This document shows, piece after piece, positions 2,975-24,788 of a stretch of 24,788 nucleotides of DNA (position 1 is its first letter; the number at the start of each line of letters is the position of its first letter). The translations under genes and the position numbers were made by a program. The notes beneath the pieces are model-generated. The model did no database searches, was not told where the DNA came from, and was given only the letters and a program-made list of their open reading frames with translations. The DNA is from a virus. The stretch is taken from IMG/VR virus record IMGVR_UViG_3300021579_000038, positions 1-24,788 of that record; one strand, given 5' to 3'.

Positions 2975-4417
2975 CTACCCGGACGCGAGGGTCGCGCCGT
3001 CCGAATCGAGTACGCTGTAGGACGTAAACGTACTTCCAACGACACTCTTGTTGAAGTACACGGTCCATACCAATGTGGCTGAATTCTCGTTGAAAGAGCT
3101 AGGAACGATGTAGACGCCCGACTGTTTGGGGATATCAACGTTCGCGTTTAGCCCCGCTCGAGTATCCAGGTTAATCGTGCGACTAGTGGTATTTGCCGTT
3201 AGTGTAACAGAATTAACGTCAAAATCCTGGTCTGCGCGGGTAATCGTGATTGTCAATTTGTGGGAGTCAACGCCATCCGGGTCGTTACCAGTAGCCCGCG
3301 CGACGCTTACATTGTTTGAAACGTTCGTGCGGGGGAGGTACGTCGAGCGAAGCGGGTTTACCGCCTGGGCTCGGGAGTACTCGTACGTATTATTCGCCGC
3401 TACTTCGCAGTGTAGATGCTCCGTGTTAATCCGTCCCGACGTGGCATCGAATCCCGTTTCACCCGCGTACCCGATGAGCTGTTTGATTCCGACGAACGTG
3501 CCCAGCGCGATAGGGATAGATTGGAAGTGCGCGAAGGTCCACTTCTCCGTAGCGTTGGCTATTTCAACCCAATTGCCAAATCGAGCGACGGACATGTATT
3601 CGTCGGCGAGATTGAATTGGGCAATCACGGGGGTGAATGCACTGGCGTTCGTGTCTCCGCTACGCCAGTAGAGCGTGGGAATCATGTGGGGCGTCGCCAA
3701 TGTGAACGCTCTAGAGGCTTCCGTGGTAATCGTCGTCCACGTCGTCCCGTCCGTGGAGTGCTTCCACGCAAATGTGTTCGTGCTTTGCGTGTACTCGATA
3801 CGCATCCACGTTTTACTGGAGGCGCTCGACGTCGTCCCGTTCGCAGTAAACGTCGTCGTTCCGACGCCGCGCATGGTAAACGTGGTGCCGTCGTATTCGA
3901 GACACACGTATTCCGAGTTGGCAGCGTTGAAGAACCCGAACCCGAGCGCCCCCGAGGTAATGCTTAGCGTCGCGTTGAGCTTGACCTCTATAACGTAATC
4001 CCCTCCCGTGGGGTGGATACGTTCCTTCATCTGGTACTTATCCACGTTCGCAGGGAACGAAACGGCCCCTACCCTCGAGCACGTGAGATTGAGAACGTTC
4101 GTTCCCCTGGCTACCGTGAGACTCGACGACGGCGCAGTCAGCGTCCACTCGTCCAATTGCATAGCGTCTTGCCATCCGAAGTGCGTCATATGCCTTCGGA
4201 TGACTGCGCCGGCAATGGTCGAATAGACCGGGTCAGCAGCGGAGGAGGCTACATCGATGCCGGGGTGTAGGTCGTAATCATAGCCAATCGTAGCAACGTG
4301 CGCCGAGTAGAGGCGGGGCCCGTAGGCATCCTGTATCGTTCCGGTATTCCCCGCGCATGGCCACGCGTGGCCCGTAGAATCACCTCGGTATTTTACCGTG
4401 CGCTTGACCCCTAGCAT
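2975..4417 (-). CDS. Tail-associated M23 peptidase domain interrupted by a lectin-like insert
   Basis: 480 residues, start ATG 4417 overlapping the previous stop (TAATG). M23 (lysostaphin-like) zinc peptidase signatures are present but split. His51/Asp55 in HPGIDV is the first metal-ligand motif. His297 in FAHF and His334-x-His336 in TEHLHCEV are the catalytic and final metal ligands. Between them, residues about 85-275 form a beta-rich, Thr/Ser-rich region resembling concanavalin A/LamG-like domains (YVIEVKLNAT, WMRIEYTQSTNTFAWKHSTD). The framework resumes at VARFGNWVEIAN, the strand normally close to the first motif. C-terminal residues about 365-480 are another beta-rich Thr/Ser region. 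It probably cleaves peptidoglycan cross-links during DNA entry while binding surface glycan. It belongs to a run of overlapping tail-surface genes. Confidence 0.78.
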   Translation of the reverse strand: MLGVKRTVKYRGDSTGHAWPCAGNTGTIQDAYGPRLYSAHVATIGYDYDLHPGIDVASSAADPVYSTIAGAVIRRHMTHFGWQDAMQLDEWTLTAPSSSLTVARGTNVLNLTCSRVGAVSFPANVDKYQMKERIHPTGGDYVIEVKLNATLSITSGALGFGFFNAANSEYVCLEYDGTTFTMRGVGTTTFTANGTTSSASSKTWMRIEYTQSTNTFAWKHSTDGTTWTTITTEASRAFTLATPHMIPTLYWRSGDTNASAFTPVIAQFNLADEYMSVARFGNWVEIANATEKWTFAHFQSIPIALGTFVGIKQLIGYAGETGFDATSGRINTEHLHCEVAANNTYEYSRAQAVNPLRSTYLPRTNVSNNVSVARATGNDPDGVDSHKLTITITRADQDFDVNSVTLTANTTSRTINLDTRAGLNANVDIPKQSGVYIVPSSFNENSATLVWTVYFNKSVVGSTFTSYSVLDSDGATLASG

Positions 4418-8299: not shown

Positions 8300-8851
8300 T
8301 TACTCCGGAGTAACGGTCCCCGGTACCACATTATCCGTATTGACCGTGTCAATCCAATCGCCTTCGGAGCGGTCGAGAAGCGGGTCAGCGTCGGCTTCGA
8401 CAGCCCAGCATTGAATCTCGAAGTACGCGCACGAAATTACCTGTGTGTCGTACGTCGTCGGAAGGTTCGTCACCGAACCGTAGTCGGCAAAGTAGATATT
8501 CGCCGCGAGGAGTTCCTTGTGTAGGTCGTCTCGGTAGCACTTTCGCCGGATGAAGTTGGCAAGTTCCCAAGCCTTATTCCCCGGGGAATTCGCGAATTGC
8601 TCCACCCGAACGTTCAACACGTAGGTATTCGTAATGCCAAGGTTGAAGTCATTGTGACCTGGGGTCTGCCCCTGCGCCGGAATGTAGTGTCGCTCGTACT
8701 CCCACCCCTTCTCGTCCCCCATGTGGATAGAGAGCGTAATCAACGCCTTCGAGGTCGGCGAAACCATTGGACGAGGGTCTTCCGCCCAAACGGTTTGAAG
8801 ATTCCCGCTTGCCTTTTGGATAACGTCTAGGAGGGTGGTTCGAACGCTCAT
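8300..8851 (-). CDS. Neck / tail-terminator protein (LIC_12616-like)
   Basis: 183 residues, ATG 8851 in an ATGA overlap with the gp10-like gene. Sequence features such as VWAEDPRPMVSPTSKALITL, NTYVLNVRVEQF and ISCAYFEIQCWAVEAD fit the LIC_12616/neck-terminator group that sits between the gp10-like gene and the sheath gene in DUF2184-capsid myophages. It is expected to act at the head-tail interface or tail terminator ring. The acidic C-terminus ends GTVTPE. In related phages the sheath gene follows directly, but here the fibre block does. Confidence 0.62.
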   Translation of the reverse strand: MSVRTTLLDVIQKASGNLQTVWAEDPRPMVSPTSKALITLSIHMGDEKGWEYERHYIPAQGQTPGHNDFNLGITNTYVLNVRVEQFANSPGNKAWELANFIRRKCYRDDLHKELLAANIYFADYGSVTNLPTTYDTQVISCAYFEIQCWAVEADADPLLDRSEGDWIDTVNTDNVVPGTVTPE

Positions 8852-9357
8852 TCCGTAATCTTCTGCCCGTTGAGACTCGCTTTGAGGGATTTTAGCAATT
8901 GCCCCGTGTCGATGAGGGGAATCGCGCTGCCTTTCTTCTCGATGGTGAAGGATGCGTTAGGGACGAATGCGGTGCCCGACTCAATGTTCTGAATCATGCT
9001 CTGAAGGATTTCGCGAGCGGCTTGTTTCAAGACGACTTGAGCCCCGTCTCGGTCCCCGTGCGCCACTTGCTTCAGCTTCGCGTGAATTATCCCTACGCAC
9101 TTCGTCTTGTTGGCCTCGAACCATGCGCGACACCAAGAACGCTCCGGTACGCCAAGTCCGAATTCGTTGAATTGTGCAATCTGCCCAATCGTGTACTCAG
9201 TCTGCCTGGCCCCCCCTAAGTGTCGAGGGTCTTCGTATATCTTGGCGCCGTCCTCTGCGTGCAACCCCACGGCAATACGCTGCACTCCATCAAAGAGAGA
9301 AGCCAGGAGTCGGTTGTATCCGAAGTCCCTCTCAGTGACCTTGACCCTGACTTTCAC
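8848..9357 (-). CDS. HK97 gp10-like head closure / tail completion protein
   Basis: 169 residues from GTG 9357, chosen because it forms a GTGA overlap with the upstream stop and has a GAGGA SD four bases upstream. An ATG at 9393 would add 12 residues. Diagnostic stretches are QFNEFGLGVPERSWCRAWFE and SAIPLIDTGQLLKSLKA. The pattern of PERSWxRxWF followed by a C-terminal PLIDTGQLxxS is characteristic of gp10-like neck proteins. It would join capsid connector and tail. It lies between a coiled-coil gene and the LIC_12616-like gene, all in one transcription unit. Confidence 0.78.
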   Translation of the reverse strand: MKVRVKVTERDFGYNRLLASLFDGVQRIAVGLHAEDGAKIYEDPRHLGGARQTEYTIGQIAQFNEFGLGVPERSWCRAWFEANKTKCVGIIHAKLKQVAHGDRDGAQVVLKQAAREILQSMIQNIESGTAFVPNASFTIEKKGSAIPLIDTGQLLKSLKASLNGQKITE

Positions 9358-9641
9358 GCTTCCTCTTTCGGAGTAGCTTCCGTATCCACGCAAACGGTTT
9401 TCGCCAGTAGCGCTCGTAGCGAGCGGGTCTCTTCGAGGAGTTCATTACACCTCTCCTGAACTGAATGAAGGTTCGCTAGAAGCCCGGCGTTATCTTTGGC
9501 CAGACGATAGAGAACGTCATTGTACTTCGCGTGAAGACGTTGTTCGTCAACAAGACGGCCGTGCAGCTCCAGAGACGCAACCTTCCAGTCCGTGTGCTCG
9601 GTGTCCTGCGAACGGTGCCGGGGGTCATCCGAAGACTGCAT
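9354..9641 (-). CDS. Coiled-coil protein of unknown function (95 residues)
   Basis: ATG 9641. The first 20 residues are polar (MQSSDDPRHRSQDTEHTDWK), then a long heptad-rich helix (LELHGRLVDEQRLHAKYNDV, then RLAKDNAGLLANLHSVQE) predicts a coiled coil over about residues 22-85. No domain is recognised. It overlaps the upstream membrane peptide gene by 17 bases and couples to the gp10-like gene through GTGA. It could be a neck accessory or a spanin-like partner of the membrane peptide encoded just before. Confidence 0.62.
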   Translation of the reverse strand: MQSSDDPRHRSQDTEHTDWKVASLELHGRLVDEQRLHAKYNDVLYRLAKDNAGLLANLHSVQERCNELLEETRSLRALLAKTVCVDTEATPKEEA

Positions 9642-9739: not shown

Positions 9740-10012
9740 TCACGTCACAATCGCCGCAACCGTCACTTGTCGCTTTAGCTTCTCGAAATGCTTGTGGTAC
9801 GTCGTCTCAAAATTGACGGCGAGCCTGGCTTGCTGCCCATACGGGGAGAGGGCGAGCTTGTGTGCTGCCAAGTAGGATTGCCCCTGGTCCAGGAGGTCTC
9901 CCCAGTCGTTGGAATCGAGCTCGAGCAACGCGTCGTCGAGACGGGCTTGCACCAGGGCGTCTGCTACCGCGTCGAACTCCGGGAAACGCACTCTGAATGC
10001 CGCAAGGTTCAC
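9740..10012 (-). CDS. DUF4054 head-tail connector protein (short)
   Basis: 90 residues from GTG 10012, with a GTGA overlap and SD GAGG seven bases upstream. The sequence FRVRFPEFDAVADALVQARL, LELDSNDWGDL and LAAHKLALSPYGQQ matches the DUF4054 pattern (FPEF..., DxxxWG..., AAHxLAxSP.G), a head-completion/connector protein in DUF2184-capsid phages. Most members are about 120-140 residues, so this one is somewhat short. In relatives it follows the major capsid gene closely, but here that gene is more than 6 kb upstream. Confidence 0.8.
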   Translation of the reverse strand: MNLAAFRVRFPEFDAVADALVQARLDDALLELDSNDWGDLLDQGQSYLAAHKLALSPYGQQARLAVNFETTYHKHFEKLKRQVTVAAIVT

Positions 10013-11363: not shown

Positions 11364-11413
11364 TCTTATTCTGTCCAGGACGGAGTTACGTTGTGGGTGG
11401 ATTTCGTTTCGGC

Positions 11414-11505
11414 TTGGGGCCCCTTTTCGATCAGGTCACTTCGTTTTTGGAATTTCCCCTTGGGGCCCCTTTTCGATCAGGTCACCTCGTTTTTGGAATT
11501 TCCTG
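11414..11505. repeat. 46-bp tandem direct repeat, two copies
   Basis: 11414-11459 and 11460-11505 are adjacent copies beginning TTGGGGCCCCTTTTCGATCA, identical at 43 of 46 positions. Each contains the palindrome GGGGCCCC, the segment CGATCAGGTCAC, and a run TTTTTGGAATTTCC. Since 46 is not a multiple of three, the repeat is unlikely to be coding. It could carry duplicated promoter or operator elements for the leftward gene. Confidence 0.8.
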
Positions 11506-11525
11506 AAAAACGCCCCTCCCACCAT

Positions 11526-11651
11526 GTGTGCGCCCCTGCGCACTCCACCTACGTGTGCGCCCCTGCGCACTCCACCTACGTGTGCGCACATGTAGGCGCC
11601 TACACGCACTCCACCTACGTGTGCGCACATGTAGGCGCCTACACGCACTCC
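11526..11651. repeat. Tandem stem-loop repeat array (27- and 39-bp units)
   Basis: Two 27-base units (11526-11552, 11553-11579) are followed by a 39-base unit (11580-11618) and most of a second one (11619-11651). All start GTGTGCGC and end with GCGCACTCCACCTAC or CGCACTCCACCTAC. Short units fold as GTGCGC-CCCT-GCGCAC. In long units the loop is replaced by the palindrome TGTAGGCGCCTACA. The short copies are identical to each other and the long copies are identical to each other over their overlap, so the array is recent or homogenised. Confidence 0.82.
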
Positions 11652-13845: not shown

Positions 13846-14556
13846 TTAGATACGCATCGGCATAACGACAGCGAGCCACTCAAAGCCTAGCGTGGGGCAA
13901 TTCCTTGTCACGACAATCGGTGATAACCCGCTAACCTCTGAATCCTCATTAACCGCGCCATATTCCAGCGTCACGCCTAGATTCTTCTCACCCATATCTT
14001 TGATGCACCCGGCAATCTCCCCGAGGTACTCGGTTGAAACCCCTATCTTGGGAATTGGCCCGCGTTCACGCGGGATTACTTGCTCGTACGGGGGGAACTT
14101 TGCGTCTACTGGGGTAAAGAGAACGCGTGAGACCTCTTTTTCTTGCCAACGGATAGAAACGTAACCAGCGTTCGACAATTCAACGTTTATTAAAGACGAG
14201 TAGGCTTTATGCGTTTTTAATTCCTCTTTTACCGCGCGAACGACTTTTTCAACGTTCACACGACTAATCTGGACGTCGAAAGCATGCAAAACCGTTGCAC
14301 CGGTAAGCCCCTCCGCTTTCGCGAGCCAATGACCGTTTGTCGCGCAGCACACTACGCGTTCCCCTGACACGCGCACGAGAAGGCTATTCAAGTGTGCGCG
14401 CGTTTCGTCTTTGCTAATCGCACGCTTCACTGAATTCACCATGCCAAGGAAACGATCTGCCGCGATTGTGACGCTACGCACTTTCGGCTCCGTGTCGGCC
14501 GCATCACCCTCTTTGGCTTCTGTCGTTTCGACTTGCACCGCGTTAGATGTATTCAT
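13846..14556 (-). CDS. dnaN: DnaN-like sliding clamp, shortened
   Basis: 236 residues from ATG 14556, with SD GGAGG ten bases upstream and an ATGA overlap with the previous gene. Features of the bacterial beta clamp are clear: FLGMVNSVKRAISKDETRAH with LNSLLVRVSG, the ATNGHWLAKAEG strand, DAKFPPYEQVIP (the beta-clamp FPxYxxVIP motif), and the end VVMPMRI, which matches the canonical clamp C-terminus MPMRL. Bacterial DnaN is about 366 residues with three domains, whereas this one has room for only two. Residues 1-35 are a polar acidic extension. It would tether a DNA polymerase or other clamp-binding factor to DNA. No polymerase gene is in the window, apart from the primase-polymerase. Confidence 0.85.
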   Translation of the reverse strand: MNTSNAVQVETTEAKEGDAADTEPKVRSVTIAADRFLGMVNSVKRAISKDETRAHLNSLLVRVSGERVVCCATNGHWLAKAEGLTGATVLHAFDVQISRVNVEKVVRAVKEELKTHKAYSSLINVELSNAGYVSIRWQEKEVSRVLFTPVDAKFPPYEQVIPRERGPIPKIGVSTEYLGEIAGCIKDMGEKNLGVTLEYGAVNEDSEVSGLSPIVVTRNCPTLGFEWLAVVMPMRI

Positions 14557-14747
14557 AGTTCGATAACCTCCTTTTCGACGTCCAACCAAAGACCACTATC
14601 GCGCCACGCGCTACCCTCTGAACTCTTAGTCCACAATCGCGCGGTTTTGACGCCAGCAATTCGACACTCGGGGATAACGTAGTCAAAAAACGTTACCGCA
14701 TCGCAAAACACCAATGTAGAGCCCTTAACCCTTACTCCGTAATACAT
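14553..14747 (-). CDS. Small protein upstream of the clamp (64 residues)
   Basis: ATG 14747 with GAGG five bases upstream; the stop forms ATGA with the clamp start. The product is MYYGVRVKGSTLVFCDAVTF followed by FDYVIPECRIAGVKTARLWT and an acidic tail VEKEVIEL. It looks like a small beta-rich domain. It is not recognised, and its position suggests cotranslation with the clamp. Confidence 0.65.
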   Translation of the reverse strand: MYYGVRVKGSTLVFCDAVTFFDYVIPECRIAGVKTARLWTKSSEGSAWRDSGLWLDVEKEVIEL

Positions 14748-14911: not shown

Positions 14912-15148
14912 TCACGCCGCCAAAAAAAGGGCGCATACCGTAGGACTCATGCGCGACACATCGCAGATAGACGCCATTGCAAGGGCTTCCGTCAACGCGC
15001 GCTTTTCCTCGTTCGTGCCATCCCATGCCAAGCGAGCGAGAAAGTCACGATGCGAGACACCCGAGGGGGGCGCAATGTCGAGCGCAGTTACAAGCGCAAT
15101 CGCGATGTTCCGAACTTCCGACTGAGAGAGTGTGTAGATTGTTTTCAT
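14912..15148 (-). CDS. Small helical protein (78 residues)
   Basis: ATG 15148 lies one base after the stop of the previous frame. The product MKTIYTLSQSEVRNIAIALV, then DIAPPSGVSHRDFLARLAWD and TNEEKRALTEALAMASICDV, is helical with no signal peptide. No family is recognised, and no SD is seen. If the upstream 70-residue frame is not real, this gene would be the first after the palindrome array and probably controlled by it. Confidence 0.6.
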   Translation of the reverse strand: MKTIYTLSQSEVRNIAIALVTALDIAPPSGVSHRDFLARLAWDGTNEEKRALTEALAMASICDVSRMSPTVCALFLAA

Positions 15149-15149
15149 G

Positions 15150-15362
15150 TTAGAGATACATTGCGAGAATGGTGCCACGCGTGGCGATAACTCGTACGTC
15201 ATGGCGTGCGAATAGTTCCGCGTAGTTAGCGCCACGTGTGACACTAACGCGATCACGCAAGTGACGAGAATTGTCGTCACGAGTGACGAGAATTGTCACT
15301 CCCCAGAAAGGAGCCAAAAACCGCGTGCTTTTCAGTGCGTCGACGGTGACAATTATTGTCAC
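15150..15362 (-). CDS. Doubtful 70-residue frame across the operator array
   Basis: GTG 15362 overlaps the HTH gene stop (GTGA) and the frame ends one base before the next ATG, the layout of a coupled gene. The product starts MTIIVTVDALKSTRFLAPFW and repeats VTILVTRDDNSRH, but these peptides are simply the translation of the palindromic repeats. The stretch may be a regulatory region that happens to be open. I keep it as a low-confidence gene. Confidence 0.33.
   Translation of the reverse strand: MTIIVTVDALKSTRFLAPFWGVTILVTRDDNSRHLRDRVSVTRGANYAELFARHDVRVIATRGTILAMYL
15261..15362. promoter_or_regulatory. Array of GTGAC-N7-GTCAC operators beside the HTH gene
   Basis: 15346-15362 reads GTGACAATTATTGTCAC, a perfect dyad with eight-base arms. 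15283-15299 reads GTGACGAGAATTGTCAC, and 15261-15275 repeats GTGACGAGAATTGTC followed by GTCAC after one inserted base pair shift. A further palindrome, GCCACGCGTGGC, is at 15174-15185. Repeated dyads of the same type directly after an HTH gene suggest binding sites for that regulator, giving feedback control of the genes to the left. Confidence 0.65.
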
Positions 15363-15628
15363 TCGTGGCGATGCCTTTTGACGTTTTTTGTCATGTGCGC
15401 GTGGGTGCGTGGCTTCGGTCCTGGCGCATCTTTCGGGACGTCTAGAAAACGCTCGTCCGTCAGGATTCTATATAGAGTCCGTCGCGACACGCCTAGAATG
15501 AGCGCAGCCGCTTTCGTATCGCCACCTACCGTCAAAGCGTCTCGTATTCGCCGCTCCCACATTGCGGGGTCTAGTATGCGCAAGGCGTCTAGGGGTGTCC
15601 TTTTGCGGTTAGTGTCGCGCGTTGCCAT
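15359..15628 (-). CDS. Helix-turn-helix DNA-binding regulator (Fis-type)
   Basis: 89 residues. Residues about 28-60 (DALTVGGDTKAAALILGVSR followed by RTLYRILTDERF) form a helix-turn-helix like the Fis/NtrC C-terminal domain, with 'AAxxLGVSRRTLYRIL' as the recognition unit. The rest is basic at both ends, ending in a His/Lys/Arg-rich tail (MTKNVKRHRHE). A perfect TTGACA and a GCTAAT lie upstream at a distance that puts the transcript start within about two bases of the ATG, and there is no SD, so the mRNA may be leaderless. It is the first gene of the leftward early block and sits over a set of palindromic sites. A role as early-region repressor or activator is inferred. Confidence 0.78.
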   Translation of the reverse strand: MATRDTNRKRTPLDALRILDPAMWERRIRDALTVGGDTKAAALILGVSRRTLYRILTDERFLDVPKDAPGPKPRTHAHMTKNVKRHRHE

Positions 15629-15636
15629 ATCTGCGA

Positions 15637-15663
15637 ATTAGCGCGTGGGCGGAATTCTGTCAA
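15637..15663 (-). promoter_or_regulatory. Sigma70-like promoter of the HTH gene
   Basis: On the minus strand TTGACA (15663-15658), a 15-base spacer and GCTAAT (15642-15637) precede ATG 15628 by eight bases. Reading the -10 as CTAATT gives a 16-base spacer. The close start predicts a leaderless or nearly leaderless message. Confidence 0.5.
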
Positions 15664-15693
15664 ACGCTCACTTTGGCGCATTGTGGCGCATGT

Positions 15694-15708
15694 TGGCACA
15701 CTTATTGC
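15694..15708 (+). promoter_or_regulatory. Sigma54-type promoter candidate
   Basis: TGGCACACTTATTGC matches the -24/-12 consensus TGGCAC-N5-TTGC with exact GG to GC spacing. It points right, into a stretch of about 400 bases with no gene but strong secondary structure. Chance matches occur in GC-rich DNA, so this is a candidate only. Confidence 0.42.
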
Positions 15709-15737
15709 GCGGGGTGTGGGGGCTGTTCCCCCCAATA

Positions 15738-15755
15738 TGTGTCTTTTTTGACACA
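15738..15755. repeat. Inverted repeat TGTGTC-T6-GACACA
   Basis: Six-base arms TGTGTC and GACACA flank six Ts. The half-sites resemble the GTGAC/GTCAC operators 400 bases to the left. It could be another regulator site or, in RNA, a small hairpin near the predicted rightward start. Confidence 0.4.
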
Positions 15756-15833
15756 CTAACCCCGCGAAACGGTGTGCGACGTCACCTGCTTTTTATTTAC
15801 ATCTATTACTAGTACCTACCTAGTAGAAGGGTA

Positions 15834-15970
15834 CTATATGTAGGGGGTCTCTATACAGGCACCCCTACCTACAGAAGGGGCCTATGTACGGTATATACAT
15901 ACTACCCCCTACATATAGACGTGTAGTGGTGCTCCCATCCCCCATGCTAGGCGCACCCACTAGAGCACGT
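15834..15970. ncRNA. Structured non-coding element: three-way junction plus adjacent hairpin
   Basis: CTATATGTAGGGGGT (15834-15848) is a perfect 15-base inverted match to 15904-15918. Inside it two hairpins follow with no gap: 15858-15882 (GG..CCCCT with AGGGG-CC) and 15883-15901 (TATGTA with TACATA). A further hairpin, 15919-15970, starts on the next base (ACGTG TAGTGG TGC pairing with GCA CCACTA CACGT around small bulges). The closed, stacked layout is more than low-complexity DNA usually gives. It could be a structured RNA or a cruciform replication or recombination site. Strand is unknown. Confidence 0.42.
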
Positions 15971-16045
15971 ATATACCCGATACCCCTAACAATACCGTAG
16001 GATACTATATCCCTAGGTACTATGGATACATATACGCAGTGGTAT

Positions 16046-16119
16046 GTATAGGTGTGTATGTGTATACACATGTATACAATGTGTGACATGTAGCATACAT
16101 GCCTACACAAACCTCTTTT
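16046..16119 (+). terminator. Long AT-rich hairpin followed by T-run
   Basis: GTATAGGTGTGTATG (16046-16060) pairs with CATACATGCCTACAC (16094-16108) with one mismatch and two G-U pairs. The loop contains the palindromic TGTATACA. Rightward, CTCTTTTT ends at 16119. It would be a possible end for a rightward transcript from 15720, giving an RNA of about 400 bases. Confidence 0.35.
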
Positions 16120-16244
16120 TGACTACAGAGATTTACGTGTAGGCGCGTACCCAATTTTCTACCCAGGAAAATTTTTGAGCGACCCCTAAATCGGTCGTAC
16201 CTTCGGCTACAAAAATTCCCAGAAAAATTTTCTAGACGCCAAAC

Positions 16245-16278
16245 GGACGAAACCCCCGGAACCTTTCGGCGCCAGGGG
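16245..16278 (-). terminator. Terminator candidate after the major capsid gene
   Basis: On the minus strand CCCCTGG (16278-16272) pairs with CCGGGGG (16259-16253) with one G-T pair around a 12-base loop, then TTTCG follows. It lies about 25 bases past the capsid stop. The T-tract is short. Confidence 0.45.
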
Positions 16279-16302
16279 CTCCAGATTGACTTATACGGGG
16301 CT

Positions 16303-17286
16303 TTAGACGCCGTCGACGTAGCAGATAGCCTTCGGGTACCGAACCTTCACGCCGCCTACCCGCATGTGGCAGGGAACGACGAAGGCCATGCCCTCGACCT
16401 GGGGAGCGAACTGCTCGAAGTCCTGCGAGATGACGAGCTGCGCCACTCGGGGGTCCTTCTTGTAGACCATCATGCGGTCCGTGGAGCTTGCGCCCGCGCC
16501 GTCAAGACGGTTCCAGAAGTCGACGTTCTTGATCCAGGGGCTGAACTTCAGGAGGTACGTGAGAATCGAATCCGCCGTGTAGGTCGGCGAAAATGGGGTA
16601 TTCGTGATGTACGAGTACGCCGCCGTGGGAAGCAGGAGCGTATCCGGCATATGAATGCCCTTGGTCGTATCGAAGATTTTCTTCGCCGCGCCGTTCACGT
16701 CCGCGAGAATCTCGGCCGGGGTCTTGTTCGGCCAAGTGTCGTCGCCCGAACCTGCCGACACACCGAGCGTCCCCGCGAGGATGCCCGAAGCGTTGACGAA
16801 TCCGCCCATGTTCGTGTTCGTGTCGCCCGTGGCGGCGATATCCTCGAGGAGGTTTTCCATGACCTCGCGGACAACCGTCGCTTTTTCCGAGTCGAGGCTG
16901 AGACCAGCCATCGCAGCCGCGCGAAGGTCCTGTAGGTTGTACTGGTACGAAGCGCCGAGGCCCTTCACCTTGCCAGTGAACTCCGAACCGAAGATTTCCA
17001 CGTTCGGGAAGTCTTTCGCGTAGTTGTGGATAATCTTCGCCTCGCCGAGTTTATCGAACTGACGGTAGGTGAAGGTTTCCGCGCCGGTCGGGACGCGGGT
17101 ATCCACGGGGATGAGCTTCCGGGCTTTGAGTTCCGGGTACTCAACATTGTACATCTCGGTGTAGATGTGCTCGAGCTGCTTGGCGAAAATCGCCGACTCA
17201 TTCGAGTCAAAGCGCTGGCCAAGGGGGCCCTGCATGCGCTTCAGGCCCTCGGTGACGAAAAGTTCCAGGTCTTGTCGGTAACTCAT
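16303..17286 (-). CDS. Major capsid protein (DUF2184 type)
   Basis: 327 residues from ATG 17286, chosen over a start at 17349 because TAAGGA lies ten bases upstream and the extra 21 residues only translate the end of the cement-protein gene in another frame. Characteristic stretches are RKLIPVDTRVPTGAETFTYR, VKGLGASYQYNLQDLRAAAM and the C-terminal MRVGGVKVRYPKAICYVDGV. The order of N-arm helix, 'P.DT..P.GA.TFTY' and 'A.SY.YN..DLRAA' matches DUF2184/HK97-fold capsid proteins of myophages. It builds the icosahedral shell. It is preceded by cement protein and protease, the standard order, but followed by non-coding DNA rather than the connector. Confidence 0.9.
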   Translation of the reverse strand: MSYRQDLELFVTEGLKRMQGPLGQRFDSNESAIFAKQLEHIYTEMYNVEYPELKARKLIPVDTRVPTGAETFTYRQFDKLGEAKIIHNYAKDFPNVEIFGSEFTGKVKGLGASYQYNLQDLRAAAMAGLSLDSEKATVVREVMENLLEDIAATGDTNTNMGGFVNASGILAGTLGVSAGSGDDTWPNKTPAEILADVNGAAKKIFDTTKGIHMPDTLLLPTAAYSYITNTPFSPTYTADSILTYLLKFSPWIKNVDFWNRLDGAGASSTDRMMVYKKDPRVAQLVISQDFEQFAPQVEGMAFVVPCHMRVGGVKVRYPKAICYVDGV

Positions 17287-17299
17287 GTTCGTTATTTCC

Positions 17300-17860
17300 T
17301 TACGGTCCCGTGGGTCCAGTCGGCCCCGTGGGTCCGGTCGGGCCGGCAACCGCGGGAATATTCACTTCAACGAGGCAGAGCGACGAATCGCTCGCGGAGA
17401 AGTCCTTCACGAAGACGCAGCCAAGAAGGTTGCTAATCTCCACGCCGGAGCTCGAACTCGTGTTCGAACCCGTGATGAACCCCTGGTACGTCGTAGTCGT
17501 GGAGCTGTGCTTCACGTTGCAACCACCGAGTTCCGTCTGGCTTCCACCGTTGAAAGAGCAGTAAATCCGCCCCTTACGGAGAACCGGAACCATGTCGTAC
17601 TGCGCGTAGACGGCGCTTCCGCCACCGACCGCTTGTTCTTTTTGGAACGGCGTCCAGACAGCAACTCCACCGACCTTGCCGATCGTGGTCGTCGACTGTG
17701 CCCGGCGAACCTTGCCCGAAACGACTTCCACCACGCAGCCAGCGGGGATGGATTCGCTCGCCGGGTAGGAGACGATTTCCGCCTCGCTCCCCGTGTAGAG
17801 GTCCGCGAGCATTCCCGCTTTCGCGATGCCCGGTTTCGTTGAATAACTCGTCTGAGACAT
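17300..17860 (-). CDS. Capsid cement/decoration protein with collagen-like tail
   Basis: 186 residues from ATG 17860, with SD GGAG seven bases upstream and a TAATG overlap with the protease stop. The body (MLADLYTGSEAEIVSYPASE, IPAGCVVEVVSGKVRRA, KVGGVAVWTPFQKEQ) resembles DUF2190/gp24-type structural cement proteins that stabilise the shell after expansion. The end is unusual: [18 protein letters not shown], four to five Gly-Pro-Thr triplets like those of the fibre protein at 6316-8241. Such a tail could trimerise or display on the capsid surface. Confidence 0.78.
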   Translation of the reverse strand: MSQTSYSTKPGIAKAGMLADLYTGSEAEIVSYPASESIPAGCVVEVVSGKVRRAQSTTTIGKVGGVAVWTPFQKEQAVGGGSAVYAQYDMVPVLRKGRIYCSFNGGSQTELGGCNVKHSSTTTTYQGFITGSNTSSSSGVEISNLLGCVFVKDFSASDSSLCLVEVNIPAVAGPTGPTGPTGPTGP

Positions 17861-18927
17861 TACTTACTCCCGCCTTTCCAGGCATTCGCGTTGCGTTCGG
17901 CCATCTTCTTGCGCGCTTCGGCAATCGGGTCTTCCCCAGAGTCCTCGCGGGCTCCCGAAGCGGTCTTGTTCAGGTCGGCGAGCTTCTTCTGGCTCGCAGC
18001 AAACCCCGAAACGGCAGCCTCGAATCGGCCACGGAGGTAGTCATCCGAGCGTCCGTCAAAGCGGCACTCCGGGTCCGCCGTCTTTACGACGCTCTCCATG
18101 ACCGCACGGTCAGAAAGGCCGTCGAGCTTGGCCTCGGGTCCGAGGACCTTTCGGGCCGATTCATGAAGCGCCAGACGAGCATTGACCAGAGAGTCGAGGT
18201 GCTCGGGAGCAGCGACGGTTGAAAGATCCGCCACTTTCTTCTTGAGACCGTCATTTTCGCCCTCGAGGGAGTCCGCTCGCGACGTGACCCCTTTGAGGTC
18301 GGCCTCGAGCTTCGCGACCTGCGCGAGAAGCTTCTTGAAATCTTCGTCCATACCGGAAGTGTAGGAATCGAGTACTTCCTTAGACTCCAGGACTTCCCCC
18401 ATACCGTCGAGCCGAAGCGCCACGTCAGGACCCGCGCGCCCCCAGCCTTTGGGGCCCAGGCCAACATGGTTGTACCGGATGTTCTTTTGGACGAAGTCGT
18501 ACTTCTCCCCCTGGTAGGTCCCGGACTCGGGTTCAACGTCGCACTCGTACCCGCAGGACAGTTCGACAAGCTCCCGTGCGTCCACCTTCGCGACGGCTGC
18601 GGCATCCTGGACGACGACTGAAGCCGAGACGAACTTGGAATCCTTCCGGACCTCGTCCCCGACATGCCCGACAGAGACGGACTTCCAATTCGAGGAGTCG
18701 ACCATCCCCGGATGCCCGATGGTGACGGGAGCCCCGGGGAGTGTTGCCAGGGAGGCGGGGGAGAAGACTTCGTCCGGGTGTCGGAGTTCGCGGCGCTCGC
18801 CTCCGTCCGCGCGGCGGTAGATGAAGACCCCCGTCCGGGTCAGGTTGGCGGGAATGCGGAGGCCCCCCTGGGGGGTCCGGGCAGCGCCAGAGACTACGCC
18901 AGAGAAGTCGAAATGTTGGACGGGCAT
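17860..18927 (-). CDS. Head maturation protease/scaffold fusion (DUF2213)
   Basis: 355 residues. Residues about 1-175 match DUF2213: GVFIYRRADGGERRELRHPD, LPGAPVTIGHPGMVDSSNWK, ELVELSCGYECDVEPESG, then RYNHVGLGPKGWGRAGPDVA. His67 in TIGHP and the Ser-Cys-Gly-Tyr segment are candidate active-site residues of this prohead-protease-like family. Residues about 190-245 form a coiled coil (LLAQVAKLEADLKGVTSRAD, LEGENDGLKKKVADL), and the rest is helical and charged, typical of a fused scaffold that is removed on maturation. No SD is visible before ATG 18927. Portal and terminase, usually just upstream, are absent and replaced by non-coding DNA and the primase gene. Confidence 0.85.
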   Translation of the reverse strand: MPVQHFDFSGVVSGAARTPQGGLRIPANLTRTGVFIYRRADGGERRELRHPDEVFSPASLATLPGAPVTIGHPGMVDSSNWKSVSVGHVGDEVRKDSKFVSASVVVQDAAAVAKVDARELVELSCGYECDVEPESGTYQGEKYDFVQKNIRYNHVGLGPKGWGRAGPDVALRLDGMGEVLESKEVLDSYTSGMDEDFKKLLAQVAKLEADLKGVTSRADSLEGENDGLKKKVADLSTVAAPEHLDSLVNARLALHESARKVLGPEAKLDGLSDRAVMESVVKTADPECRFDGRSDDYLRGRFEAAVSGFAASQKKLADLNKTASGAREDSGEDPIAEARKKMAERNANAWKGGSK

Positions 18928-19269
18928 GAGGGGATTTTAGAAATTCCCGAGGTGCCCTGTCCGCCCTACTCCCGATAAAAATCGTAAGCCGGGTATTCCC
19001 TAGTACTTACCTATAGATATACCTATGTCTTATATGCCTTATATATTTTTATATAGTATTTATAGATACCTAGGTAGGGGTATACCAGAGGGTATACAGC
19101 CCCCTGTAGCCCTCCTACACCCCCCCTGTAGCCCTATATGGTCCAAATTTTCGTAAGATTTCGAGACGGACCGTATCTTCTCGGAATCATTAAACAAAAG
19201 TGCGCCTCATGTCACTTTAGGTCGTAAGACACACAAGGTAAATTGTAGGTATATGTAGGTATTACAGGT
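18928..19269. other. AT-rich non-coding region, candidate replication origin
   Basis: No gene is seen. 19010-19070 is almost pure A/T with TATAGATA and TATAT words. TCGTAAG occurs three times in the same direction (18982, 19151, 19222). CCCCCTGTAGCCCT is repeated at 19100-19113 and 19122-19135. GGGGTATAC (19077-19085) pairs with GTATA-CAG-CCCC to form a hairpin. Short repeats, an AT-rich stretch and a neighbouring primase/helicase gene together suggest an origin, or a promoter region for the capsid block. Confidence 0.45.
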
Positions 19270-19306
19270 CAAAAAGAAGGGCGGCGCCGATTCGGCTGTC
19301 CGCCCT
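19270..19306 (-). terminator. Strong rho-independent terminator of the primase gene
   Basis: AGGGCGG (19278-19284) pairs with CCGCCCT (19300-19306). Inside, GCCG-ATT-CGGC forms a second stem. On the minus strand TTCTTTTTGACC follows. It lies 17 bases past the primase-helicase stop, the expected place. Confidence 0.85.
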
Positions 19307-19322
19307 GGCTACTTGGCAAACT

Positions 19323-21524
19323 CTAACTGAGGTTTGCTTTTCGCTGGAAGTCTTCCGCGTGCGAGCGAGCCTTTTCGGTAGGGGACATTTCGGATTCTGC
19401 TAGGTGCTCGGGGACAACCCAGACCCAGAGTTTCGAATCCGACCCTTTGACAGGACGGATTTGCCGGTACTCACACCCGATGTCCGTAAGGGTCTGTTTG
19501 ACCTGTTTGCGTAGAGCCGCGGAACTTAGTTTCACGATTCCGCCCGTTTTATCGATAGCGTTCGTGTAAACGTCCTCCATTCGCACCCATTTCTTCCCCT
19601 TCACATATTCCGTAACTACGTTTTCCCATGGGTTCTGTTGCTGGAATTGGACTCGTACTAGGTTGGCAGCGTCTTCCGTGATTTCCCAGTGGGGCTCTTC
19701 TGCTTCGGGGCGGTTCGCGAGGTAGTACGCTTCCCCCCAAATAAGGTCACGGTTCGCTTTCACGAACTCGATATCGACCTTTTTGCAAGGGATAGGCCAG
19801 TACCGACGCTCGCCCGTGGGGTCTCGCAGGAATTCTGTCTCGTTGGTCGTCCCGATAAAGATGCATTGCCGCGGGAATCTCCTTTGGCAGGCTTCGTACG
19901 CGGGTCTGTAGTCGTCATATTTCCGCGCCAAGAAGTCTTTCGCCGTCGTACTGTCGACGCGGAGGAGCTTGTCCAGCTCGGCGATTTCAATCGCCCAATA
20001 CCCTCGGAGAGCGTCGGAGGCATCCTTAGAGGAGAGTTCCGGCATTTGGCTTCGGGTGAACTCTTCCCCGAAGAGTGTCTCGATGAACGTGGACTTTCGG
20101 ATTCCTTGCTTCCCGTGGAGCACCAACATTGTGTCCACTTTTTCGGATTCGTAATTTTTGCCTGGACGGAGAACCCTGCGCACGGCGGCGATGAGGGTTT
20201 TCCGTAAGAACCTATTGAAGGTAGGGTCTTCCACACCGAAAACCACGGCAGCTAGCTCGTCGAGAATCCCCGGAGCACGTGGGCAGCCTCGGAGGTATTC
20301 CACGATGGGATGAAACTTGTGGTTCTTGCAGATGAGTGGGAGCAGGTCCTGGCAATCTTGTTTGGATACCTGATACCCGTAGTGTGCGAACCAAGAACGT
20401 AGGTTCATCGCGTCGTCTTTGGTGATTCCGGTCCCGGGGCGTTCGCAATCCATCGGGAAGGGGGGATTCACGGCGGCGTGTTTATCCCGGAACTCGTCGT
20501 ATTGCATCACCCCTTCCCATTCTTCGTGGGTGGATAGGACAATCCGAAGGTCGTTGAACTCCAATTCCCGCATGGAGTTGCTCGCTGAAAGCATGTTCGG
20601 GTTCGGGTAAAGGTACTCGCGCTTTGCCGTCGGGGTCTGCCTCGAGGTCTTCGGGGGGTCGGCAGCAATTTTTTGCGTCGGAGTCTTCGGTGCGAAGTTC
20701 TGAAACCACTCCGGTACTTCCACCTTTGGCTTCGCGGTCGCTTTAGCCCCGGCTTCGTTTAGCTTGTGGATGAGTTCTCGCTCGCTCCATTCGGGGGAGC
20801 ACCTCGGATTGAAGTGTTCTTGTAGGAGGGCGAGGGAGACTTCCGCGGGAAGGCGAAACGCGAGAACGAGTTTTCGAGCGGCCGTCCAAAGAGCCTTGTG
20901 CCCGTTCTCTCCTTCTATAGAGGGCTTCGCGTTTTTCAAGTACGCGATGGCAGCATCGAGCGCAGCGGCGCCTTCGTCGGAATCCAGGTCTACCCTGTCT
21001 TCGAGTTCTACAGGCTTCTCGGACTTGGAGTTCCGAAGTCCGGGCCAATTGAGAAGCCATTCGGGCGCGTCGGCGATAGGGAGGTCCTCGACGACTTCGT
21101 AAACGCCCCCGTTGGCGTGCGGGCTTCCAGCCTCGACCACCATTCCGCCGTCCCCTCGGATATCCACCCCTGGTGCGAGTTCCTTCGCAGAGTTGCGAAC
21201 CTTGAACCCAGGCCATTTGAAGTAGAAGTGAAACCCACCTGTGGGAGTTGCGACCACAAGAGTGTCGGGCATAGGCCCGAGTTTCAAGATGTCTTCGAAT
21301 CCGTCGACTCCCTTTTCAGGGCGTACGTCGACGTCGACGACGAAAATACCTGAGCGCTCCCCCGTGCAGACTCCGTGGCCGTGCTCCCCCCGCACGGACT
21401 CTGTAATTTGCCCCCATCGAATTTTCGCGTGCTTCCCACCCTTGTCACACGAGGGGTTAGAGCACTGACACTTACCGTTGATTACATTGTAGAGAGGAAA
21501 AGTAACGAAATTCGTCTCGCCCAT
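19323..21524 (-). CDS. Bifunctional primase-polymerase / VapE-type superfamily 3-like helicase
   Basis: 733 residues. The N-terminus has a small Cys set (CQCSNPSCDKGGKH, 19-32). Residues about 35-170 are a prim-pol domain: FVVDVDVRP with Asp64/Asp66 as metal ligands, TPTGGFHFYF (94-101), and GVDIRGDGGMVVEAGSPH (119-136). A middle helical part (PriCT-like) leads to the ATPase domain: Walker A GKQGIRKST (471-479), a Walker B-like strand YWAIEIAELD (509-518), IGTTNE (557-562) and TGERRYWPIP (570-579), typical of virulence-associated E/D5-like phage helicases. It makes primers and unwinds DNA at replication start. No SD precedes ATG 21524. It is divergent from the nuclease operon across a 38-base gap and ends at a strong terminator. 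Confidence 0.93.
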   Translation of the reverse strand: MGETNFVTFPLYNVINGKCQCSNPSCDKGGKHAKIRWGQITESVRGEHGHGVCTGERSGIFVVDVDVRPEKGVDGFEDILKLGPMPDTLVVATPTGGFHFYFKWPGFKVRNSAKELAPGVDIRGDGGMVVEAGSPHANGGVYEVVEDLPIADAPEWLLNWPGLRNSKSEKPVELEDRVDLDSDEGAAALDAAIAYLKNAKPSIEGENGHKALWTAARKLVLAFRLPAEVSLALLQEHFNPRCSPEWSERELIHKLNEAGAKATAKPKVEVPEWFQNFAPKTPTQKIAADPPKTSRQTPTAKREYLYPNPNMLSASNSMRELEFNDLRIVLSTHEEWEGVMQYDEFRDKHAAVNPPFPMDCERPGTGITKDDAMNLRSWFAHYGYQVSKQDCQDLLPLICKNHKFHPIVEYLRGCPRAPGILDELAAVVFGVEDPTFNRFLRKTLIAAVRRVLRPGKNYESEKVDTMLVLHGKQGIRKSTFIETLFGEEFTRSQMPELSSKDASDALRGYWAIEIAELDKLLRVDSTTAKDFLARKYDDYRPAYEACQRRFPRQCIFIGTTNETEFLRDPTGERRYWPIPCKKVDIEFVKANRDLIWGEAYYLANRPEAEEPHWEITEDAANLVRVQFQQQNPWENVVTEYVKGKKWVRMEDVYTNAIDKTGGIVKLSSAALRKQVKQTLTDIGCEYRQIRPVKGSDSKLWVWVVPEHLAESEMSPTEKARSHAEDFQRKANLS

Positions 21525-23715: not shown

Positions 23716-24788
23716 AGAACCTACCCACGCGTACGTGGTCCGACGCGGACGCGAACAAGCTAGCCTCCGACCTTACGGAGCTTCTGAAGACCCCCCAAGG
23801 TAAGTGGAAGCTCCGTACGGTTCAGGCAATCGCGCTTTACGAAATGGGGACGTACGGAGGTCTCTTTGGTCCCATTCGAGTAGGCGGAGGTAAGACCCTA
23901 ACGACCCTCCTGGCCCCGTACGTTCTCGAGGCGAAGCGCCCTATCCTTCTTCTTCCCGCTGCACTCATTGAGAAGACCGAGAGGGAGCGCCGAGAACTCG
24001 CGAAGCATTGGCGTATCCCGGTGAACCTTCGAATCATGTCCTACGAAATGCTGGGTCGCGTGCAAGCGGCGGAGACGCTGACGTTCTACAAGCCAGACCT
24101 GATTATTTCGGACGAAAGTCATAAATTGAAGAACAAGCGGGCCGGCGTCACTCGACGCGTAGCTCGGTACATGCGGGAGCACCCGGATACGAAGTTCGTT
24201 GCGCTTTCCGGTACCGTGATGAAGGGCTCCATTCGGGACTTCGCGCACATCCTTCGGTGGTGTCTGAAAGACGGAGCGCCTATTCCGAAGACTGAGGGGG
24301 AACTAGAGGAGTGGGCGGATTCACTCGACGAGAAGGTGAACCCTCTCAACCGAATCAATCCAGGACCTCTCACGACGTTGGCCCCTGCTATGGGAGCCGA
24401 CGAACTCCAAGTCGCGCGGCGAGCGTTCCAGGCGAGGCTATGCAGCACTCCCGGAGTCGTCGCGACGAAGGCTGGGGAGGACGTGGATTGCTCGCTCTAC
24501 ATACGTGCGCTGAAGTACGACGTCTCCCCGATTACCGATAAGCACTTCCACACACTTCGGTCGAAGTGGGAGACGCCTGACGGGTGGGCCCTTTCCGAAG
24601 CCGTAGGGGTGTGGAGACATTCAAGGGAACTGGCGATCGGCCTGCATTATGCCTGGAGCCCTCGCCCACCGGAGGAATGGGTCAATCGTCGGAGAGAGTG
24701 GGCTGCGTTTGTGCGAGAGACACTCTCACATTCTCGGACCCTCGACACGGAGCTTCAAGTCGCGATGGCGTGTGACGCGGGGCAGCTC
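23655..24788 (+). CDS. SNF2/DEAD-type helicase, N-terminal part, cut by window edge
   Basis: The frame is open from 23595 to the right edge. TTG 23655 is the only good start, with SD GGAAGG eight bases upstream, giving 378 residues so far. Motifs in order are: Q-like LRTVQAIAL (53-61), Walker A VGGGKTLTT (76-84), ILLLPAALIEK (97-107), motif II ISDESHKLKNK (151-161) and motif III ALSGTVMKGS (183-192). The DESH box and 'HKLKN' are typical of SNF2-like phage helicases. Later residues (GWALSEAVGVWRHSRELAIG) match the accessory part before the second RecA domain, which lies beyond the window. It probably works with the nuclease and primase in replication or recombination. Confidence 0.9.
   Translation, partial: MSIQYFSKRRITETPELRRIKNLPTRTWSDADANKLASDLTELLKTPQGKWKLRTVQAIALYEMGTYGGLFGPIRVGGGKTLTTLLAPYVLEAKRPILLLPAALIEKTERERRELAKHWRIPVNLRIMSYEMLGRVQAAETLTFYKPDLIISDESHKLKNKRAGVTRRVARYMREHPDTKFVALSGTVMKGSIRDFAHILRWCLKDGAPIPKTEGELEEWADSLDEKVNPLNRINPGPLTTLAPAMGADELQVARRAFQARLCSTPGVVATKAGEDVDCSLYIRALKYDVSPITDKHFHTLRSKWETPDGWALSEAVGVWRHSRELAIGLHYAWSPRPPEEWVNRRREWAAFVRETLSHSRTLDTELQVAMACDAGQL

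Follow-up and report, generated by a model that had tools for sequence, protein, structure and literature searches.

The window, that is, the whole stretch of DNA that was analysed, is the complete virus record IMGVR_UViG_3300021579_000038 (24,788 bases). Its genes include an integrase, tail, neck, head protease, cement, capsid, primase/helicase and exonuclease genes and a partial helicase gene. Here we consider the spacer between the gene of a small helix-turn-helix (HTH) protein and the major capsid protein gene. The genes that flank this spacer are all on the minus strand. The features of the region are as follows.

15359-15628, minus strand: gene of an 89-aa protein with a Fis-type HTH_8 helix-turn-helix (22.3 bits, cut-off 22), divergent from the spacer
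15673-15703, plus strand: 10-base direct repeats TTTGGCGCAT / TGTGGCGCAT / GTTGGCACAC, the third copy being degenerate
15694-15708, plus strand: sigma54-like promoter core TGGCAC-N5-TTGC, TGGCACACTTATTGC, an exact match with an expected start at about 15720
15696-15777: element A, a predicted three-way junction in which an imperfect inverted repeat encloses two 6-bp hairpins; it overlaps the promoter core
15790-16120: non-coding core of extreme composition (TpA 2.1x, AA/TT 0.3x, GA/TC 0.4x and CG 0.5x expected)
15834-15918: element B, a perfect 15-bp inverted repeat with two weaker inner hairpins (p about 0.002)
15919-15970: hairpin ACGTG...CACGT of the predicted fold, abutting element B
16036-16119: element C, a long imperfect hairpin of the predicted fold, followed by T5 on the plus strand
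16303-17286, minus strand: major capsid protein gene (phrog_264, E 3e-85), whose 3' end faces the spacer

Every motif given in the preliminary description of this DNA was found at the position stated there, but the 10-base repeats, element A and the extreme dinucleotide composition had gone unnoticed. That description regarded the spacer as free of genes, and this is borne out: the longest open reading frame (81 aa, minus strand) is not longer than expected by chance (p 0.10-0.20) and matches no PHROGs family, and for these reasons we reject it as a coding sequence. In addition, no tRNA was found in the window.

The position of the spacer in the genome is informative. In the relatives L097 and L098, adaptor and neck genes follow about 0.4-0.7 kb after the capsid gene, whereas their homologues in the window (9740-10012 and 8848-9393) lie 6-7 kb from it, behind an HTH/clamp module. 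This places the spacer at the border between modules, and it is located at the exact point where the gene order of the window departs from that of these relatives; capsid mRNA arrives there from the right, and the HTH gene starts to the left. The protein encoded at 13846-14589 has one PHROG label as RusA-like, but over much of its length it also matches models of the sliding clamp (DNA polymerase III beta subunit), and for this reason we do not argue for a resolvase from the RusA label. Another gene of this phage (10387-11025) encodes a protein that starts like a lipoprotein (LLIACSS) and has a metalloprotease domain of the matrixin type (M10); its nearest NCBIfam family is myxobacterial, a weak resemblance that is insufficient to name the host, and a genome scan found no host.

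The sigma54-like site is exact, as previously described, and is the only perfect match in the window. Its GG and GC are ten bases apart (GG-N10-GC), and it scores 14.9 with an approximate matrix whose weights follow the consensus and were not fitted, so that all site counts given here are approximate. Two sites in the window score at least 14, compared with 0.15 expected, and both are intergenic; the second (15163-15177, minus strand) is located ahead of an ATG at 15148. Near this second site, 15173-15371 contains operator-like palindromes (GTGACGAGAATTGTCAC and GTGACAATTATTGTCAC) and the repeated AGTGACGAGAATTGTC; the palindromes at 15283 and 15346 are also near the spacer. No plus-strand gene is present downstream of the 15694 site, and no sigma54 activator domain or gene is encoded in the three phage records checked (the window and two relatives).

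A problem arises from the 10-base repeats, the unit of which is TGGCGCAT: the third, degenerate copy supplies the TGGCAC of the promoter motif, and thus half of this motif has a second, simpler source. The 25-base pattern that spans the repeats occurs once, and in none of 100 shuffles. On the minus strand, the HTH gene is preceded by a TTGACA (15664-15659), and the repeats are immediately upstream of this hexamer.

Searches with the capsid protein identified two syntenic relatives, L012 (G001) and L013 (G002), with capsid identities of about 46-49%. At the protein level, both share with the window a syntenic set of protease, cement, primase, exonuclease and helicase genes, and both lack this spacer. 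G002 contains three perfect TGGCAC-N5-TTGC sites, all just ahead of genes.

L013 3318-3332 (G002 35206-35220), minus strand of L013: 28 bases before the first ATG of the primase frame
L013 3565-3579 (G002 35453-35467), plus strand of L013: ahead of a small gene that precedes the head genes
L013 7095-7109 (G002 38983-38997), plus strand of L013: after the capsid gene and ahead of the next gene

Two of these perfect sites flank the replication and head genes. With the same approximate matrix, six sites in G002 score at least 15, compared with 0.2 expected. In L012, TGGCACGGAACGCGC (3780-3815) keeps GG-N10-GC ahead of the small gene before the head genes, in the same place as a perfect site of L013. 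The perfect sites of G002 suggest that host sigma54 may control phage operons, and because they are just ahead of genes, the sigma54 reading of the 15694 site gains support. We consider the predicted promoter at 15694 plausible: the motif is perfect and recurs without mismatch ahead of genes in a relative, although the -24 half doubles as a repeat copy. The site resembles known sigma54 (RpoN) -24/-12 promoters, as do the L013/G002 sites ahead of primase, head and post-capsid genes, but it differs from them in that no gene is read from it, that its core is in one arm of an inverted repeat and that its -24 half may be a degenerate repeat. If the G002 sites act as sigma54 promoters, the late programme of that phage would be coupled to a host sigma factor that is linked to nutrients and stress, and the sites ahead of primase and head genes may then matter more than the spacer itself. 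In a limited search of the open-access literature, no paper describing phage late operons driven by sigma54 came up.

Element A is the strongest structure of the spacer. Its stems are GCACAC/GTGTGC, CGCGGGGT/ACCCCGCG, TGGGGG/CCCCCA and TGTGTC/GACACA. Folded as DNA, a 93-base stretch containing the element gives z -5.2 and -5.6 on the two strands; folded as RNA, 15690-15780 gives z -4.0 and -4.6 on the two strands against trinucleotide shuffles. Almost the entire sigma54-like core is in the left arm of the element, and transcription would be expected to start (at about 15720) within its first hairpin. Consequently, the left part of element A would be missing from a transcript of this promoter, and such an RNA cannot contain the element.

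The perfect 15-base inverted repeat (15834-15848 with 15904-15918), which the preliminary description reported, is present and exceeds chance. It is the longest in the window at gaps of up to 150, and among Markov sequences of order 1, 2 and 3, modelled on the element's own composition, it was equalled or exceeded in 3, 5 and 4 per 2000, respectively (0.15-0.25%). The 85-base hairpin of element B gives z -3.7 on the plus strand and -3.8 on the minus strand, and the hairpin that had been described as starting on the next base (15919-15970) is recovered in the predicted fold. The three-way junction that had been proposed here holds only in part: the perfect stem is real, but 110-base sliding windows over the junction give only z 0.1 to -1.7. 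Similarly, the predicted fold contains the final hairpin before T5 at 16119, but this is not a convincing terminator, since the stem (16046-16119) is imperfect and a scan of 15000-19400 called no intrinsic terminator. Element C gives z -1.95 (plus) and -2.25 (minus) against trinucleotide shuffles, and when folded as DNA it forms two hairpins on a short stem. In elements A and B, nearly every pair is of the Watson-Crick type, and the fold is as strong on one strand as on the other.

These folds must be read together with the composition. Relative to expectation, 15790-16120 has TpA 2.14, AA 0.26, TT 0.37, GA 0.45, TC 0.31 and CG 0.47, compared with TpA 0.82 and AA 1.18 in the whole window, and its vocabulary (GTA/TAC, CTA/TAG, GTAC and TATA) pairs with itself. 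The fold of 15720-16120 (401 bases) gives z -2.84 on the plus strand and -3.64 on the minus strand against dinucleotide shuffles, and z -1.94 and -2.6, respectively, against trinucleotide shuffles. Both strands thus beat the dinucleotide controls, but the excess weakens with trinucleotide controls, and the strand on which an RNA had been claimed is the poorer one. The earlier concern that low complexity might produce spurious pairing is right for the fold as a whole but not for the 15-bp stem; the spacer illustrates how folding scores are inflated by a composition of low complexity.

A second TpA-rich spacer (18960-19300), between the primase gene and the head operon, resembles the first in composition and gives z -3.2. 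The words common to the two spacers exceed the dinucleotide but not the trinucleotide expectation, and therefore we reject homology between them. This second spacer also holds the window's least stable DNA (19038-19067); 15789-15818 ranks third among all 30-base stretches. Elsewhere, the strongest local fold of the window (23721-23830, z -6.5, plus strand) is at the start of the helicase reading frame, and 11413-11651 contains tandem repeats of 46, 27 and 39 bases with a palindrome, TGTAGGCGCCTACA.

No homologue of the element was found by DNA similarity in phages, plasmids and E. coli genomes or by pattern scans of IMG/VR, and Rfam gave no match at the gathering score and, at E 10, only chance matches far below the cut-offs. 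The pattern scan for the 15-bp stem returned two unrelated matches, one of which is an actinophage-like long hairpin beside tRNAs, and that for hairpin 1 of element A returned four unrelated places that lack the outer stem; we rejected all of these. An unrelated phage record (L007, 1985-2095) contains a long imperfect inverted repeat, TGTAGGTATGTAGGGG...CCCCCCTACATATCTACA, beside a tRNA cluster, with the same word use as element B. In G001, the top-scoring inverted repeat is long, of similar size, located between the primase and head genes, and encloses two hairpins (z -3.1 on both strands); it has no sequence similarity to that of the window, and its score is 27, compared with a maximum of 26 in six shuffles. 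This repeat and the second TpA-rich spacer suggest that the genome of the window tends to carry DNA-level dyads in its spacers, rather than one special RNA.

Our preferred reading, in which we place roughly even confidence, is that the non-coding stretch 15640-16300 serves a temperate tailed phage for control and as a boundary, with inverted repeats that act at the DNA level. On one side of it the leftward head operon (protease, cement and capsid) would end, and on the other the leftward HTH gene would open a separate module. Elements A, B and C would most likely act as double-stranded DNA dyads, serving as protein-binding sites, as cruciform-prone sites, or as hairpins that halt or insulate transcription from either side. 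The 15694 site and the 10-base repeats probably belong to the promoter/operator of the divergent HTH gene, to a weak sigma54 promoter, or to both, and binding or extrusion at element A would then cover the promoter.

Several observations favour DNA dyads. First, the main inverted repeat exceeds chance, and A and B are equal on both strands with nearly all Watson-Crick pairs, which fits DNA dyads better than one RNA, because a constraint acting only on RNA would allow G-U pairs on one strand. Second, element A spans the sigma54 start and so cannot lie in an RNA from that promoter. The boundary position, the G001 repeat, the second TpA-rich spacer and the operator-like palindromes at 15283 and 15346 also count in favour of the preferred reading. 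The cruciform or DNA-site alternative offered in the preliminary description likewise fits the strand symmetry better than an RNA does, although extrusion is putative. The motifs, their statistics, the lack of a recognisable gene, the strand symmetry and the boundary position are observations, whereas we infer that the spacer may bind protein, insulate and regulate. On the other hand, dyads do not by themselves explain the extreme TpA-rich composition; the element has no homologue by which conservation could be judged, and the binding protein is putative.

The claim that the spacer encodes a phage non-coding RNA of about 400 bases, running rightward from the sigma54 promoter (about 15720) to the hairpin and T5 at 16119 and folding around the 15-bp stem, fares worse, and we consider it unlikely. 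Such an RNA would suit the perfect -24/-12 motif, the gene-free stretch with a divergent gene on the left and a convergent gene on the right, the excess of sigma54 sites in G002 and the stem itself. However, the claimed strand folds no better than the other, the best structure straddles the start site, the terminator is not called, neither an Rfam match nor a relative was found, and the -24 half coincides with copy three of the 10-base repeat. GOLLD and ROOL, which the spacer resembles in comprising several hundred gene-free phage bases with predicted complex folding, are defined by covariation across many sequences and are often near tRNA islands (PMC12286853). Unlike them, the spacer has no Rfam match, no tRNA in the window and no family support.

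Alternatively, the direct repeats (15673-15703), the three-way junction of element A, the easily melted 15789-15818 and the position between primase and sliding-clamp-like genes might indicate a replication or recombination site, that is, an origin or a resolvase target with a cruciform-forming repeat. This seems quite improbable to us: the region contains no DnaA box, the other spacer holds the least stable stretch, GC skew in the window follows gene direction, and neither an initiator gene nor a homologous origin was identified. We are more doubtful still of a minus-strand RNA feature, namely, a structured spacer in a capsid-to-HTH transcript that would protect or terminate the head mRNA. 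The orientation of the flanking genes and the more significant fold on that strand agree with it, but no T-run follows a hairpin there, A and B have similar z on both strands, and a possible weak terminator, seen by eye and not called by the scan, directly follows the capsid stop. Least probable of all is a new class of phage RNA, some 400 bases long, that is expressed from a promoter for host sigma54 and switched by a DNA three-way junction embedded in this promoter; in at least one member of the phage group, G002, sigma54 promoters would drive the replication and head genes.

In temperate phages, intergenic regions that hold operators and terminators or form a boundary carry palindromes, promoter-like motifs and short direct repeats where two modules meet, and the genes on either side are divergent or convergent. 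The spacer shares these features, and as a control region only, it would be one more example of a palindromic phage spacer. It differs from such regions in its extreme TpA-rich composition and in its unusually long perfect repeat enclosing hairpins.
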